Assembly: GCA_000233775.1 (NCBI GenBank)
Contig: CP003096.1
Span: forward strand, 832,501 to 896,500
Length of the DNA stretch: 64,000 nt
Origin: Thermovirga lienii DSM 17291
GTDB lineage: Bacteria; Synergistota; Synergistia; Synergistales; Thermovirgaceae
Direction of reading: 5' to 3'
Both the position numbers and the translations under genes were made by a program. A model generated the notes under the pieces. It did no database searches. It was given only the letters and a program-made list of their open reading frames with translations, and had not been told where the DNA came from. This document shows positions 32,309 to 37,333 of the stretch, piece by piece. How positions within the stretch are numbered: position 1 is the stretch's first letter; every line of letters begins with the position of its first letter.

Positions 32309-32337
32309 TTTACATGGCAAATTTTTTGTGTTATAAA
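32309..32337 (+). promoter_or_regulatory. Promoter of the serine biosynthesis operon
   Basis: TTTACA (32309-32314) and TATAAA (32332-32337) are separated by exactly 17 bases. Transcription would start near 32344, about 38 bases before the leader peptide ATG. Confidence 0.75.
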
Positions 32338-32381
32338 ACCTCCATTCAAAACATATTTTACAAGAACAGAGAGATGACGCA

Positions 32382-32510
32382 ATGACTAAAAGTAAGAAAA
32401 GGTTACTTGGTATAGGTTGTTCGGGAGCTATGGGTTCTTCTTCCTCCTCTTGGGAAGGAGACAGTTCTTCTATTGTTTTATTTTTGAGGGCTCCCGAAAC
32501 GGATTACTGA
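32382..32510 (+). CDS. Serine-rich leader peptide of the serine operon
   Basis: A 42-codon frame starts at ATG 32382 and stops at TGA 32508-32510. It contains five Ser codons in a row (32436-32450: TCT TCT TCC TCC TCT) and three more at 32463-32471 (AGT TCT TCT). Another Ser (TCG) at 32421 follows a Cys codon. The peptide has no features of a functional protein. The run of Ser codons upstream of a terminator and the serine genes is what an amino-acid-sensing leader peptide should look like: a ribosome short of charged tRNA-Ser would stall there. The ribosome binding site is modest (GAGAG about ten bases upstream). An internal ATG at 32430 is too close to its GGGAG to be preferred. Confidence 0.8.
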   Translation: MTKSKKRLLGIGCSGAMGSSSSSWEGDSSSIVLFLRAPETDY

Positions 32511-32572
32511 GGTAGATTTTAGCAGTTGGGGAAATTTTAAAGGAGGGAGCCTTAAAAGGCTCCCTCCTTTTT
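32420..32572 (+). promoter_or_regulatory. Transcription attenuator sensing serine supply
   Basis: Four segments can form exclusive helices. Segment 1 TTCGGGAGC (32420-32428, inside the leader frame) pairs perfectly with segment 2 GCTCCCGAA (32490-32498). Segment 2, as AGGGCTCCC (32487-32495), also pairs over nine positions with segment 3 GGGAGCCTT (32545-32553). Segment 3 is the left arm of the terminator whose right arm (segment 4) is at 32557-32570. A ribosome stalled on the first Ser codons would cover segment 1, letting 2:3 form and preventing termination. A ribosome reaching the stop codon covers segment 2, so 3:4 terminates. This is the trp/his-leader logic, read directly from sequence; the regulation itself is inferred. 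Confidence 0.8.
32539..32572 (+). terminator. Attenuator terminator ahead of the serine genes
   Basis: A 14-bp stem, AAAGGAGGGAGCCT (32539-32552) with AGGCTCCCTCCTTT (32557-32570), has a four-base loop and ends in TTTTT. It lies upstream of the first structural gene rather than after one, which marks it as an attenuator. Confidence 0.93.
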
Positions 32573-32610
32573 ATTAGGTGCTTAAACTAAAAGGGCAGAG
32601 GAGGATGAGG

Positions 32611-33759
32611 ATGAGAAGATACTTGTTTACGCCAGGGCCGGTAGAGTTAAGCAAGAAGGTTAAAGAAGCCACGAAGGGACAAATGATAAGCCACAGAAGC
32701 AGGGAGTTTTCCAGTTTGATGTCGGGTTTGCAGTTAAAGCTGCGAAAGTTGTTGAATGTCCAAGAACCCGTTTTACTCTTTCCTGGTTCCGGTACATCGG
32801 CACTCGAAGCTTTATTAGTAAATCTGATTTCTAGGGGCGATAAAGTTCTTTCCTTCTCTTGCGGGCATTTTGGCGAACGATTCCGTGAAATTGCCTCTCG
32901 TATTGGAGCCGTAGTGTTATCTTTCGATAAGCCTTATGGAGAAGTTTTCACAAAAGAAGAGGTAGTTGGCGCTGTAAATCTTTATAGTGATGCTTCTGCC
33001 ATATTAATAACCCACAACGAAACATCTACTGGGGCAGCTAACCCCATAGAGGAGATAATAGAAGGCCTTCCTGCAGACGGCCCCCTGGTCTTAGTGGATG
33101 CCGTTAGTTCCATTGGTGCGATGCCGTGCTATCCGGAGAAATGGGGCGTAGATGGTTTGGCCACTTGTTCCCAGAAAGGGCTTATGGCGCCTCCTGGTAT
33201 AGGAATTGTTTGGCTTTCCCGTAGAGCCTGGGAGAAGGTCCGTCAGAATAAAACCTGTCCCTCTTACAGCATGGATTTTCTTCTAATGAGGAAGTACCTT
33301 GAAAAAGAGCTTCCTCAAACTCCTGTTACGCCTCCTGTGTCTTTATTTTTCGCTTTGGATGCATCCCTTGAGGAGGTAGAAGAAGAAGGGGGGTTCTTGA
33401 GACGTTTTGAGGAGCGCAAGGCCTATGCTCAGTCATTATGCAAGGCAGTAGAGGACCTTGGGCTTGAGTTGTTGGTCAAAAACAAGCCTTCAAGGTCCTG
33501 TGGCGTTACTGCTATACGAATTCCAGGCAAGGCAGAGTCAGTGAGGAAGGGATTGCTTGAAAAAGGGATAGAAGTGGCTGGAGGGCAGGGCGCTTTGAGA
33601 AACGAAATAATAAGGGTTGGTCACTATACCAGAGAGGGCTTGTCGGAGCTTTGGGATTTCATTCAAGCTCTCGAAGAAACCTGTAAAGAATTGGGGGTTG
33701 CCGTCGATAAGATGAGCTTCGGCAAGATAGAGGAACTTTACACTGGGAGGTGCAGATAG
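32611..33759 (+). CDS. Class V aminotransferase, probable phosphoserine/serine-pyruvate type (SerC role)
   Basis: This 382-residue PLP enzyme is related to alanine-glyoxylate and serine-pyruvate aminotransferases. It has FTPGPVELS at the N-terminus, LFPGSGTSALEA, THNETSTGAANP, VDAVSSIGAMP and the PLP-Lys 189 in TCSQKGLMAPPG. Together with serA directly downstream (no gap) it most likely performs the SerC step, converting 3-phosphohydroxypyruvate to O-phosphoserine, as in organisms that lack classical SerC. Alternatively it is a serine-glyoxylate aminotransferase. ATG 32611 is six bases after AGAGGAGG; the ATG at 32605 touches that site. The serine attenuator upstream supports the biosynthetic role. 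Confidence 0.87.
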   Translation: MRRYLFTPGPVELSKKVKEATKGQMISHRSREFSSLMSGLQLKLRKLLNVQEPVLLFPGSGTSALEALLVNLISRGDKVLSFSCGHFGERFREIASRIGAVVLSFDKPYGEVFTKEEVVGAVNLYSDASAILITHNETSTGAANPIEEIIEGLPADGPLVLVDAVSSIGAMPCYPEKWGVDGLATCSQKGLMAPPGIGIVWLSRRAWEKVRQNKTCPSYSMDFLLMRKYLEKELPQTPVTPPVSLFFALDASLEEVEEEGGFLRRFEERKAYAQSLCKAVEDLGLELLVKNKPSRSCGVTAIRIPGKAESVRKGLLEKGIEVAGGQGALRNEIIRVGHYTREGLSELWDFIQALEETCKELGVAVDKMSFGKIEELYTGRCR

Positions 33760-35400
33760 ATGTGGAAGATCCTAGTCACTGAGAAGATTCATCCTTCAGG
33801 ATTAAAGGAGCTAAGGAAAGATCCGGAAGTGGAACTGCTGGAAAAAGTGGACATGAGTGAAGAGGAGTTTTTTCACTTGGTCAAAGACGTAGATGCTCTC
33901 GTGACCAGGAGTGGTACCTCTATTGACAAAAGGGTACTAGATGAAGCCAAACGGCTCAAGGTCGTTGCCAGGGCAGGGGTTGGAGTGGATAACATTGATC
34001 TTGATTGGGCAAGTCGGAAAGGTGTAGTCGTTATAAACGCTCCCACAGGAAACACTCTTGCTGCAACTGAACACACCTTTGCTCTCCTTCTGTCTATTTG
34101 CCGCAAGTTGCCTCACGGGTTCAACGACCTGGCGAGGGGCGGTTGGAACAGAAAGGCTTTTATGGGAATGCAGCTTCATGGTAAAACCCTCCTAATAATA
34201 GGGCTTGGCAGGATAGGCAGCCAGGTAGCCAAGCGAGCAGAAGCTTTTGGAATGGAGGTTTTGGCCTATGACCCCTATATAAGCGCTCGGAAGGTGGAAG
34301 AATTAGGGGTTAGAAGGGCACTTGAGTTGGAAGGCGCATTGGCTTTGGCTGATGTGGTTACATTGCATACCCCCTTGACCTCGGAGACCAAGGGAATGAT
34401 AGATGAAAGGACTCTTAAGGCCTTTAAAAAAGGAGCAATTCTCATAAACTGTGCGAGAGGGGGATTGGTGGACGAGCAGGCTTGCGCGGATGCTATAAGA
34501 GAAGGGCGCCTTGCAGGTGCGGCGTTCGACGTGTTTTCCCAGGAGCCCCCTAAAAATGATCACCCGCTTTTCGCGGAGGATATAAGGGATAGGGTAGTCC
34601 TTACCCCCCATATAGGGGCCAACACTCATGAGGCTCAATCGGCTGTTTCTCTCATAATAGCTAAGAATCTTTTGGCGGCATTGAAGGGAGAGCCTTACGA
34701 GCATGCAGTAAACCTACCCTTTATGGAGCATAAGCTCTCTGCTTCGGGCAAACGGTTCTTGGCTTTGGCACGAAAAATGGGCATCTTGGCAGCCTCAATC
34801 GTTGCAGGAGCGCCGGGGAGTGTGCAGTTTTCCATGAGGGGCATACCTGTTGATGATGTGGTTGAGGCAAGAGCTTATGAATATTGTAGCCACTGTCCTT
34901 ATACTATTGCGGCCCTTAAAGGTGTTCTAGAGAGGCATTTGGGGCGAGGTATAAGCTACATGGAGGCTCCGCTCCTTGCACAGGAGAGGGGCATATACGT
35001 AGAGGAGGCGAGCATCTCCGATTCACGTTATCGCTACCTGATGGAATTGAAGGTAAAAAGCGACAAAGAGGAAGTTGTGATATTGGCGACTGTCACAGAA
35101 GATGATGAGAAGCAGCGCATAGTAGGCATAAACGGCTACAGGATGGACTTTGAGCCCAGCGGGAGTTTCATTATATTTCAGAACCATGATAGGCCAGGAG
35201 TTATAGGTAAGATAGGGACCTACCTTGGAGAGAAGGGCATAAATATAGCCAATTTTTACTTGGGAAGAAAAAATGGAAGCGGCTTGGCCTTTGGGGTTTT
35301 GCAGGTCGATGGAGAGGTAGATCAGCAGGTTTTGGAGGATCTTAATGAAGCTGAAGATTTTGTGTGGGTAAGTAGCGTTAAATTTGAGGGGGATAGATGA
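33760..35400 (+). CDS. serA: D-3-phosphoglycerate dehydrogenase
   Basis: This 546-residue enzyme oxidises 3-phosphoglycerate to 3-phosphohydroxypyruvate with NAD, the first step of serine synthesis. The substrate domain starts WKILVTEKIHPSGL. The NAD fold has IGLGRIGSQVAKRAEAFG (about residues 146-163), then CARGGLVDEQA and LTPHIGANTHEAQ with the catalytic His. A long intervening domain (about 320-465) and a C-terminal ACT domain (FQNHDRPGVIGKIGTYLGEK) make it the long form, in which serine can inhibit through ACT. It begins at the base after the aminotransferase stop, so it is co-transcribed and controlled by the attenuator. Confidence 0.96.
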   Translation: MWKILVTEKIHPSGLKELRKDPEVELLEKVDMSEEEFFHLVKDVDALVTRSGTSIDKRVLDEAKRLKVVARAGVGVDNIDLDWASRKGVVVINAPTGNTLAATEHTFALLLSICRKLPHGFNDLARGGWNRKAFMGMQLHGKTLLIIGLGRIGSQVAKRAEAFGMEVLAYDPYISARKVEELGVRRALELEGALALADVVTLHTPLTSETKGMIDERTLKAFKKGAILINCARGGLVDEQACADAIREGRLAGAAFDVFSQEPPKNDHPLFAEDIRDRVVLTPHIGANTHEAQSAVSLIIAKNLLAALKGEPYEHAVNLPFMEHKLSASGKRFLALARKMGILAASIVAGAPGSVQFSMRGIPVDDVVEARAYEYCSHCPYTIAALKGVLERHLGRGISYMEAPLLAQERGIYVEEASISDSRYRYLMELKVKSDKEEVVILATVTEDDEKQRIVGINGYRMDFEPSGSFIIFQNHDRPGVIGKIGTYLGEKGINIANFYLGRKNGSGLAFGVLQVDGEVDQQVLEDLNEAEDFVWVSSVKFEGDR

Positions 35401-35401
35401 C

Positions 35402-36034
35402 ATGCGTTTTTTTCTCATACGCCATGGACGCACTAATTGGAATTCGGAGGGAAGGTATCAGGGCGTAATAGACGTACCTCTAGATGAAGTGGGGAAGAAA
35501 CAAGCTGAATTGTTAGCCAAGTCCTTGAAGTGTGTAACCATTGACAAGGTTTGGAGTAGTCCCTTAAGCAGGGCCAAAGAGACTGCTTGGTATATATCCC
35601 AAGAGCATGGCTGTCCCCTTGAAGTCCATGAGGGACTTACCGAGATCTCCCATGGAGAATGGGAGGGCAAATATGCTCATGAGGTAAAGGCTCTCTGGCC
35701 TGAGCTCTATGATCTTTGGTATAAGGAACCCCAAAAGGTTAAAATGCCTTCTGGAGAGACTTTGGAGGAGGTTGCGAATAGGGCAAAAGGTGCGTTGGAG
35801 TTTATCCTAGGCGAGGGAAAAGACCCAGTGGCTGTTGTAACCCATGACGCAGTGATAAAAGTGCTTTTGTGCCATTTTTTGGAGTTGCCTTTGGCCAAGT
35901 TTTGGAGTTTTCATGTGGCCAATTGTTCCGTTACCATGATTGAGAGAAAGGGAAAAGAATTTTGCATTTACCTTTTGGGAGAAAGGCCTTGGGCTTCCAA
36001 TAGGTACGATTGGGAAAAACAGGCTGGGCTCTAA
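35402..36034 (+). CDS. Histidine phosphatase family protein, probable metal-independent phosphoserine phosphatase
   Basis: This 210-residue cytoplasmic enzyme has the phosphoglycerate-mutase-like fold. R7-H8-G9 in FFLIRHGRTNW carries the phosphohistidine, LTEISHGEWEG the general acid region, and VVTHDAVIKVLL the second His. Segments such as GRYQGVIDVPL and LAKFWSFHVANCSV strongly recall the cofactor- and metal-independent phosphoserine phosphatases described in Hydrogenobacter. It follows serA directly, and no classical HAD-type SerB is nearby, so it probably dephosphorylates O-phosphoserine and completes the pathway. A cobalamin CobC-type or mutase role is the alternative. ATG 35402 follows GAGGGGGATAG. 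Confidence 0.82.
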   Translation: MRFFLIRHGRTNWNSEGRYQGVIDVPLDEVGKKQAELLAKSLKCVTIDKVWSSPLSRAKETAWYISQEHGCPLEVHEGLTEISHGEWEGKYAHEVKALWPELYDLWYKEPQKVKMPSGETLEEVANRAKGALEFILGEGKDPVAVVTHDAVIKVLLCHFLELPLAKFWSFHVANCSVTMIERKGKEFCIYLLGERPWASNRYDWEKQAGL

Positions 36035-36118
36035 GGCGATACTTGAAACGTGGACATATGTTTTTTTTGGGTGTATTTTCAAAGTGTAGTGGTGACATCT
36101 CGTGGGGAGGTGGTTGTT

Positions 36119-37333
36119 TTGCTCAATAAGAGGATGGAAATTTTAAAGCAGCTTGCTACAGAAGCACCGACCAAGATAGTTATGTTGGTCATAGATGGTC
36201 TAGGCGGATTGCCGGACAAAGATGGCATGACGGAGCTGGAAAGGGCGTTCACACCCAACTTGGACGAAATAGCATCAAGGGGTGAGACAGGTCTCTTGGA
36301 GATGGTGGATGTAGGGATAACCCCTGGTAGTGGACCAGGACATTTGGCTCTGTTCGGCTACGACCCCGTGGAATTTACCGTGGGGAGGGGCATACTTGAA
36401 GTATTGGGAACAGGGGGCAAGGTCTCCCGAGGAGATGTATGTGCTAGGGGCAACTTCGCGACCTGGGGGGTGCAAGACGTAATCCTGGACAGAAGGGCTG
36501 GAAGGATAGAGACGGATAAATCAAGAGAGCTCGTAGAAAGGCTTAGCGAGGCAATAAAGGAGATAGACGGAGTGAGGATTACGTACTATCCAGGTTTGGA
36601 GCACCGATTTTCAGTGGTGTTTTCCGGTGATGGCCTTTGTGACTGTGTGAGTGACGCCGACCCTCAAAAGGATGGGGCTTCTATGAGGTGGGCTGAGCCT
36701 TTGTCCGAGGAAGGATCCAAAATGGCCGACATAGTAAATAAGTTCATTCGTGAGGCAAGGAATGTTTTAGATGGTGAGCCCAAGGCAAACGGCTGCCTTT
36801 TGAGAGGTTTCTCAGGAGTTCCAGATATCCCTCATCTTGGAGAGTTGTATAAAATCAAACCCCTTGGCTTGGCTTCGTACCCCATGTACAGGGGACTCGC
36901 GAGCTTAGTGGGTATGGACGTTTTGGAGGTGGAAAACAACCCAATCAAGCTAATTGAAGAGTTGCAGGCTAGGTGGGATGCTTACGACTTTTTCTACTTG
37001 CATGTCAAGCATGGGGATAGCAGGGGAGAGGACGGGGACACCTTGGGCAAGATTAAGGTAATAGAAGAGGTGGACAAAGTCATGCCATTGCTGATGGAGT
37101 TGAGCCCCGATGTTTTGGTTGTGACGGGAGATCATAGTACCCCGTCGAGGATGAAAGGGCATTCTTGGCACCCATCCCCTTTGGTTTTGTTGAGTCCCTA
37201 TGTAAGACCCGATGGGATTTCCACGTTTGGGGAGAGGGATTGTGCAAGAGGCAGCTTGGGTATAATACCCGCATGGAAGCTTATGGGGCTGCTTTTGGCC
37301 CATGGAAGGCGGTTGAAGAAGTTTGGAGCATAA
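36119..37333 (+). CDS. apgM: 2,3-bisphosphoglycerate-independent phosphoglycerate mutase, archaeal type
   Basis: This 404-residue enzyme interconverts 2- and 3-phosphoglycerate. It belongs to the alkaline-phosphatase superfamily (ApgM). KIVMLVIDGLGGLP holds the first metal Asp, GITPGSGPGHLALFGYDP the phospho-Ser region, and VVTGDHSTPSRMKGHSWHP the remaining metal ligands. The start is TTG 36119, eight bases after GGGGAGGTGG; the frame is open to 36050 but that part is not conserved. It lies about 85 bases downstream of the phosphatase and probably belongs to the serine operon, where it could supply 3-phosphoglycerate to SerA. Confidence 0.92.
   Translation: MLNKRMEILKQLATEAPTKIVMLVIDGLGGLPDKDGMTELERAFTPNLDEIASRGETGLLEMVDVGITPGSGPGHLALFGYDPVEFTVGRGILEVLGTGGKVSRGDVCARGNFATWGVQDVILDRRAGRIETDKSRELVERLSEAIKEIDGVRITYYPGLEHRFSVVFSGDGLCDCVSDADPQKDGASMRWAEPLSEEGSKMADIVNKFIREARNVLDGEPKANGCLLRGFSGVPDIPHLGELYKIKPLGLASYPMYRGLASLVGMDVLEVENNPIKLIEELQARWDAYDFFYLHVKHGDSRGEDGDTLGKIKVIEEVDKVMPLLMELSPDVLVVTGDHSTPSRMKGHSWHPSPLVLLSPYVRPDGISTFGERDCARGSLGIIPAWKLMGLLLAHGRRLKKFGA

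Follow-up and report, generated by a model that had tools for sequence, protein, structure and literature searches.

Upstream of the presumed serine biosynthesis operon of Thermovirga lienii DSM 17291 lies a short open reading frame rich in serine codons, followed by a strong hairpin, and the locus raises the question of whether the two form a switch through which serine supply controls the operon. Attenuators of the trp, his, leu, thr, phe and ilv operons combine a leader ORF carrying codons for the end product, an intrinsic terminator, a competing antiterminator and coupling to the ribosome. A first-pass annotation of the window (the whole 64,000-nucleotide stretch analysed, contig CP003096.1, to which positions refer) had proposed such a device for serine. 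Having compared the locus with those of relatives and modelled its RNA, we consider it likely, with a probability of roughly 0.86, that a ribosome-mediated transcription attenuator controls the operon; it is probably a classical trp/his-type attenuator with a new specificity, serine.

Leader elements in the window

A promoter-like pair of hexamers was found where the first-pass annotation had placed it (Table 1), with TTTACA at 32309–32314 and TATAAA at 32332–32337 on either side of a 17-nt spacer, and the pair is also conserved in the sister species (G005, leader L007). Similar pairs, matching in at least 10 of 12 positions, stand ahead of 56 of 68 leaders, compared with a frequency of 2% in shuffles. 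The window pair is missing from the list of a general promoter scanner because that scanner demands a T at the last −10 position. The 42-codon frame is likewise present as described, with its five consecutive Ser codons and three more (Ser at positions 4, 14, 19–23 and 28–30); many relatives have better ribosome-binding sites, of the AGGAG type, than its AGAGAGA. Among the sites of five consecutive TCN triplets in the genome, the leader alone has a longest overlapping frame, on either strand, of fewer than 100 codons, all others lying in or opposite longer open frames.

The base pairing claimed for the window also held. Segment 1 is the exact reverse complement of the segment 2 core (32490–32498, GCTCCCGAA) over nine bases, and segment 2 can pair with the terminator left arm through GGCTCCC (32489–32495) and GGGAGCC (32545–32551), giving 7 bp, or the nine positions originally counted once wobble pairs are included. 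The terminator ahead of the first gene has the 14-bp stem described (−26.2 kcal/mol, z −4.0 against shuffles), and the complete leader folds with a z of −3.3, none of 200 shuffles being as stable.

The codons of the Ser run can themselves pair with a purine-rich stretch shortly after them, GGGAAGGAGA, to give a 10-bp hairpin (32436–32461) that might serve for early pausing. Elsewhere in the genome (G000:C1:1714244–1714398), about 50 TCR triplets read as Ser in one frame and as a run of Asp (GAY) on the other strand; this array lies inside a longer open frame and likely encodes a low-complexity acidic protein.

Table 1 Features of the leader and operon (positions in the window)
Feature	Position	Strand	Basis or detail
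Sigma-70-like promoter, TTTACA-17-TATAAA	32309..32337	+	Sequence; kept in sister species
Weak purine-rich ribosome-binding site AGAGAGA, 7 nt before ATG	32368..32374	+	Sequence
Leader peptide ORF, 42 codons, 10 Ser codons, MTKSKKRLLGIGCSGAMGSSSSSWEGDSSSIVLFLRAPETDY (stop)	32382..32510	+	
Segment 1 (protector), TTCGGGAGC	32420..32428	+	Exactly complementary to segment 2; forms in MFE folds
Five consecutive Ser codons, TCT TCT TCC TCC TCT, putative stall site	32436..32450	+	
Three more consecutive Ser codons	32463..32471	+	Sequence
Segment 2, pairs with segment 1 or terminator left arm	32488..32498	+	
Intrinsic terminator	32539..32572	+	Left arm (segment 3) 32539–32552; right arm 32557–32570; U run to 32572
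Class V aminotransferase, presumed phosphoserine aminotransferase	32611..33759	+	PF00266; below NCBIfam SerC cut-offs
serA, 3-phosphoglycerate dehydrogenase	33760..35400	+	TIGR01327 587 bits, cut-off 454
Histidine-phosphatase family protein, phosphoserine phosphatase PspA-like	35384..36034	+	PF00300
apgM, cofactor-independent phosphoglycerate mutase	36050..37333	+	NF003160 571 bits, cut-off 468

The genes behind the leader

Behind the leader stand genes that would make the amino acid whose codons it carries: serA, the aminotransferase, the PspA-like phosphatase and apgM, which together would lead from glycolytic phosphoglycerate to serine; for the aminotransferase and the phosphatase the assignment comes from context. 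The aminotransferase, for which the ATG at 32611 was preferred to the listed GTG at 32578, scored far under the SerC cut-offs and nearer the aspartate-glyoxylate/phosphonate aminotransferase group; it is possibly a non-canonical phosphoserine aminotransferase. For the phosphatase, the best NCBIfam E-value was that of PspA, yet under the PspA cut-off, and an alpha-ribazole phosphatase model scored marginally over its own. The start codon of apgM is probably further in than listed. No Ser leader was seen just upstream of the second class V aminotransferase gene of the genome (L015).

Serine-rich leaders in relatives

A search of 188 genomes of the same phylum gave the aminotransferase in 71 and serA in 87. 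Upstream regions were drawn from 85 operons, 82 of them with at least 250 bases; G003 and G037, whose upstream regions are truncated, were left out. When a genome collection was scanned with the aminotransferase, one distant archaeal relative came back and was set aside as well. In 70 regions, from 30 genera and 9 families, we scored a Ser-rich ORF at the position expected for a leader, with a strong hairpin behind it. Among the full-length regions the exact count is 69 of 82, because truncated G171 (229 bases upstream) belongs to the 70 and falls outside the 82. Within those 82, no leader was found before the operon in four outgroup genomes (f11), before serA in G135, G148, G149 and G174, or in two genomes of genus g44 and three others.

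The leader peptides are strongly diverged (for example MTKSKKRLLGIGCSGAMGSSSSSWEGDSSS..., VIFDHILFGMGSGSSSSSSGWSGRAGLPLPA... and MRRPAYLVFNGISSSSLSSGVSSSCGGSGCHC...). Across leaders, the first Ser codon lies 104–137 nt, and the stop codon 26–57 nt, from the terminator (10–90% ranges); the elements are conserved by position and function, not by sequence. Where the gene order differs (G018, G020–25, G034, G038 and G047) the leader precedes serA, and in the serA-first operons (families f2 and f3; G034, G038 and G047) it does so directly: the Ser-rich ORF goes with the operon, not with any single gene.

Because leader ORFs were selected by their Ser content, only the controls (shuffles, antisense and other frames) carry weight here, and the genera are related and not independent data points, so that p values overstate independence. 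The best 10-codon window held a mean of 5.4 Ser, compared with 2.9 in antisense and about 3.0 in dinucleotide shuffles, and the enrichment was individually at p ≤ 0.05 in 52 of 82 regions. In frame, 31% of core residues were Ser, where composition predicts 11% and the other two frames have 6%, and this richness in product codons over controls (6–11%) was seen in 30 of 30 genera. All six Ser codons occur, TCN predominating. Between related leader pairs pN/pS was 0.66, and indels within the Ser run were of whole codons, in frame; with these features and its RBS-like sites, the ORF may be translated. A leader-peptide attenuator specific for serine is very probably conserved across an order.

Some lineages depart from the common pattern. 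In genus g44 (L036 of G150 and L053 of G151) the Ser run is gone; in G150 the terminator survives, as may the antiterminator (GATCTCAAA / TTTGAGAGATC), which suggests decay of the sensor. After the Ser run, the motif SGWSGRAGLP(L/V)PA is strongly conserved in L009, L010, L011, L013 and their relatives; it spans two families (f1 and f6), exceeds what Ser sensing needs and encodes the nested inverted repeats CTTCCGG/CCGGAAG and GGAAGG/CCTTCC. Hairpins are strong in relatives, but the U run is poor or missing in L007 (G005), L040 (G186), L088–L091 (f3) and G020–25; termination in these leaders may depend on a factor, or the hairpin may have another role.

Antiterminator and ribosome position

In the mechanism that we propose, RNA polymerase would start near 32344 and a ribosome would trail it, translating the Ser-rich leader. 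When Ser-tRNA is scarce, the ribosome would stall at the first Ser codons, covering segment 1 and leaving segment 2 free to capture the terminator left arm, and transcription would run on into the operon. When Ser-tRNA is ample, the ribosome would instead reach the stop codon and cover segment 2, the terminator would form and transcription would probably end at about 32572. Serine supply would thus be the signal read by the leader, and the switch would most likely let the cell turn on serine production only once the supply of serine to its ribosomes is exhausted.

The antiterminator was assessed with ungapped helices joining the terminator left arm to sequence beyond the Ser run, compared with shuffles. 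Gapped RNA duplex energies were dropped as a test, since long gapped duplexes arise by chance, and ungapped helices and a ribosome-position model were used for that reason. In 27 of 30 genera the 2:3 helix scored above its shuffles (mean z 1.6, p 1e-7). Segment 2 fell among the final 50 nt of the ORF in 52 of 70 genomes, against 36 expected. This significance arises because relatives were compared: across genera the antiterminator shares the terminator left arm, while the window taken by itself does no better than shuffled sequence, either in the 2:3 helix (p 0.26) or in the switch (p 0.48).

The f9 sub-group carries a 12-pair antiterminator in which 9 of the 12 pairs are kept in every sequence, a C-G to U-A exchange occurs in 7 of 14 sequences and a G-C to A-U exchange in 6 of 14; these are compensatory changes. 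Pairs were counted by a script on the bulged and unbulged forms, plus a tool on six pairs, because a general MAFFT alignment mis-registers bulged against unbulged antiterminators.

In the ribosome-position model, a partition function is computed for the RNA free downstream of the ribosome. The terminator left arm was predicted to be sequestered at 0.73 with the ribosome on the Ser codons and at 0.34 with it at the stop codon, which agrees with the earlier suggestion that the spacing suits read-through on stalling and termination at the stop. The difference, 0.37 compared with 0.12 for shuffled sequence, held in 29 of 33 genera (Wilcoxon p 4e-8); there are 33 genera here rather than 30 because the run took in G102, G114 and G177, later classed as leaderless. 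Ribosome position is computed to select the fold. Several lineages that carry the SGWSGRAGLP motif have their best segment 2 directly after the Ser run, so the order of switching there may differ.

The first-pass annotation had proposed looking in relatives for the Ser run and for both helices. The run and the 2:3 pairing were borne out, as given above, but the 1:2 protector helix, perfect over 9 bp in the window and kept in sister species G005 as seven Watson–Crick and two GU pairs, does not appear to be general, because the modelled arm is sequestered almost equally with no ribosome (0.66 on average) and with a stalled one (0.73).

Relation to known systems

Leader-peptide transcription attenuators form a described class (PMC1183508, PMC3766115), for which Rfam holds His, Leu, Thr and Trp motifs only, Ile/Val and Phe being known in addition (PMC3766115). 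The serine leader resembles the proteobacterial trp, his, leu, thr, phe and ilv attenuators in its product-codon ORF, terminator, antiterminator and coupling of ribosome position to termination, and differs in its Ser specificity, its phylum and a protector helix that is not general. Firmicutes His leaders follow the same logic outside Proteobacteria with unrelated sequences (PMC2965389, PMC9413887) but have His codons and precede his or hisS genes; the accessible part of PMC9413887 mentions Synergistetes solely for the HisR repressor. Short ORFs with codons for a serine-derived amino acid are found before mycobacterial cys operons (PMC1262725) and, as uORFC-8-2, before cysS in Rhodobacterales (PMC8632094); these carry Cys rather than Ser codons, and the mycobacterial cases are without a conserved terminator. 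In sinR of Bacillus subtilis, slowing of ribosomes at TCN Ser codons serves as a serine sensor, but acts via translation of the gene itself, which its authors contrast with leader-peptide attenuation (PMC3862929).

The earlier statement that no established serine-codon version is known for an aminotransferase/serA operon of this kind agrees with our search: none is described in the 5.39 million open-access papers searched, and the main text of a study of T. lienii intergenic regions (PMC6429828) leaves serine unmentioned. If confirmed, the leader would add serine to the amino acids sensed by leader-peptide attenuation and extend such attenuation to another phylum, most likely Synergistota. It would also offer a ready serine-starvation reporter and some 70 diverged leaders in which to study how an attenuator can stay functional as its sequence is lost.

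Alternative readings of the leader

The ORF might simply encode a functional small Ser/Gly-rich peptide, with the hairpin as its terminator and no switch, and its promoter, possible ribosome-binding site and terminator would fit this. However, the window peptide has no Pfam match, the leader peptides vary freely in sequence but keep their Ser content and spacing, the ORF is always on the same strand ahead of serine genes, and modelled left-arm sequestration varies with ribosome position, so we regard this reading as very improbable. Slightly more improbable still is sensing of serine, or of a metabolite related to it, by a T-box, a riboswitch or a protein-bound leader, in which case the Ser ORF would be incidental. 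Such control has precedents: according to the accessible part of PMC8002221, Paenibacillus serine operons are under T-box control, and before serA of P. polymyxa Ser-tRNA charging controls serine synthesis via a leader RNA, as here, but by direct tRNA binding and with no translation. Alphaproteobacterial serC also carries a structured element (PMC1273637; RF00517), which stands before serC-serA, as the present leader stands before serine genes, but is a two-stem element masking the serC ribosome-binding site, with no leader peptide described. Yet neither the window leader nor the loci of 20 relatives gave a match at gathering score to any Rfam family, the T-box model included, RF00517 gave no match in the window at gathering score or up to an E of 10, and the leaders' primary sequence is not conserved as that of an aptamer would be. 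The Rfam matches in the window leader were weak and sub-threshold; one, ylbH (28 bits, cut-off 50), was judged to be a shared terminator shape.

A third reading keeps the ribosome-mediated attenuator and concerns what it senses: stalling at Ser, Gly and Cys codons may report the pooled supply of the serine family, in a manner resembling Ile/Val/Leu leaders. We hold this as a tentative possibility, raised because in-frame Gly and, more weakly, Cys are over-represented. The wider proposal, that pooled charging of three tRNA families sets entry into serine and one-carbon metabolism across the order, is somewhat more doubtful. The Gly and Cys excess could reflect sensing of serine-derived amino acids or some other constraint; RNA pairing or spacing may account for the Gly codons, the Cys enrichment is modest, neither amino acid comes close to the concentration of Ser, and the window leader has a single Cys. 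Among non-Ser core codons, Gly reached 23% against 14% expected from the composition of these non-Ser codons themselves (29 of 30 genera, p 3e-8) and Cys 9% against 5% (25 of 30 genera, p 4e-4), with Trp, Leu and Arg not enriched; the excess is frame-specific, the other frames giving 6% Gly and 2% Cys.
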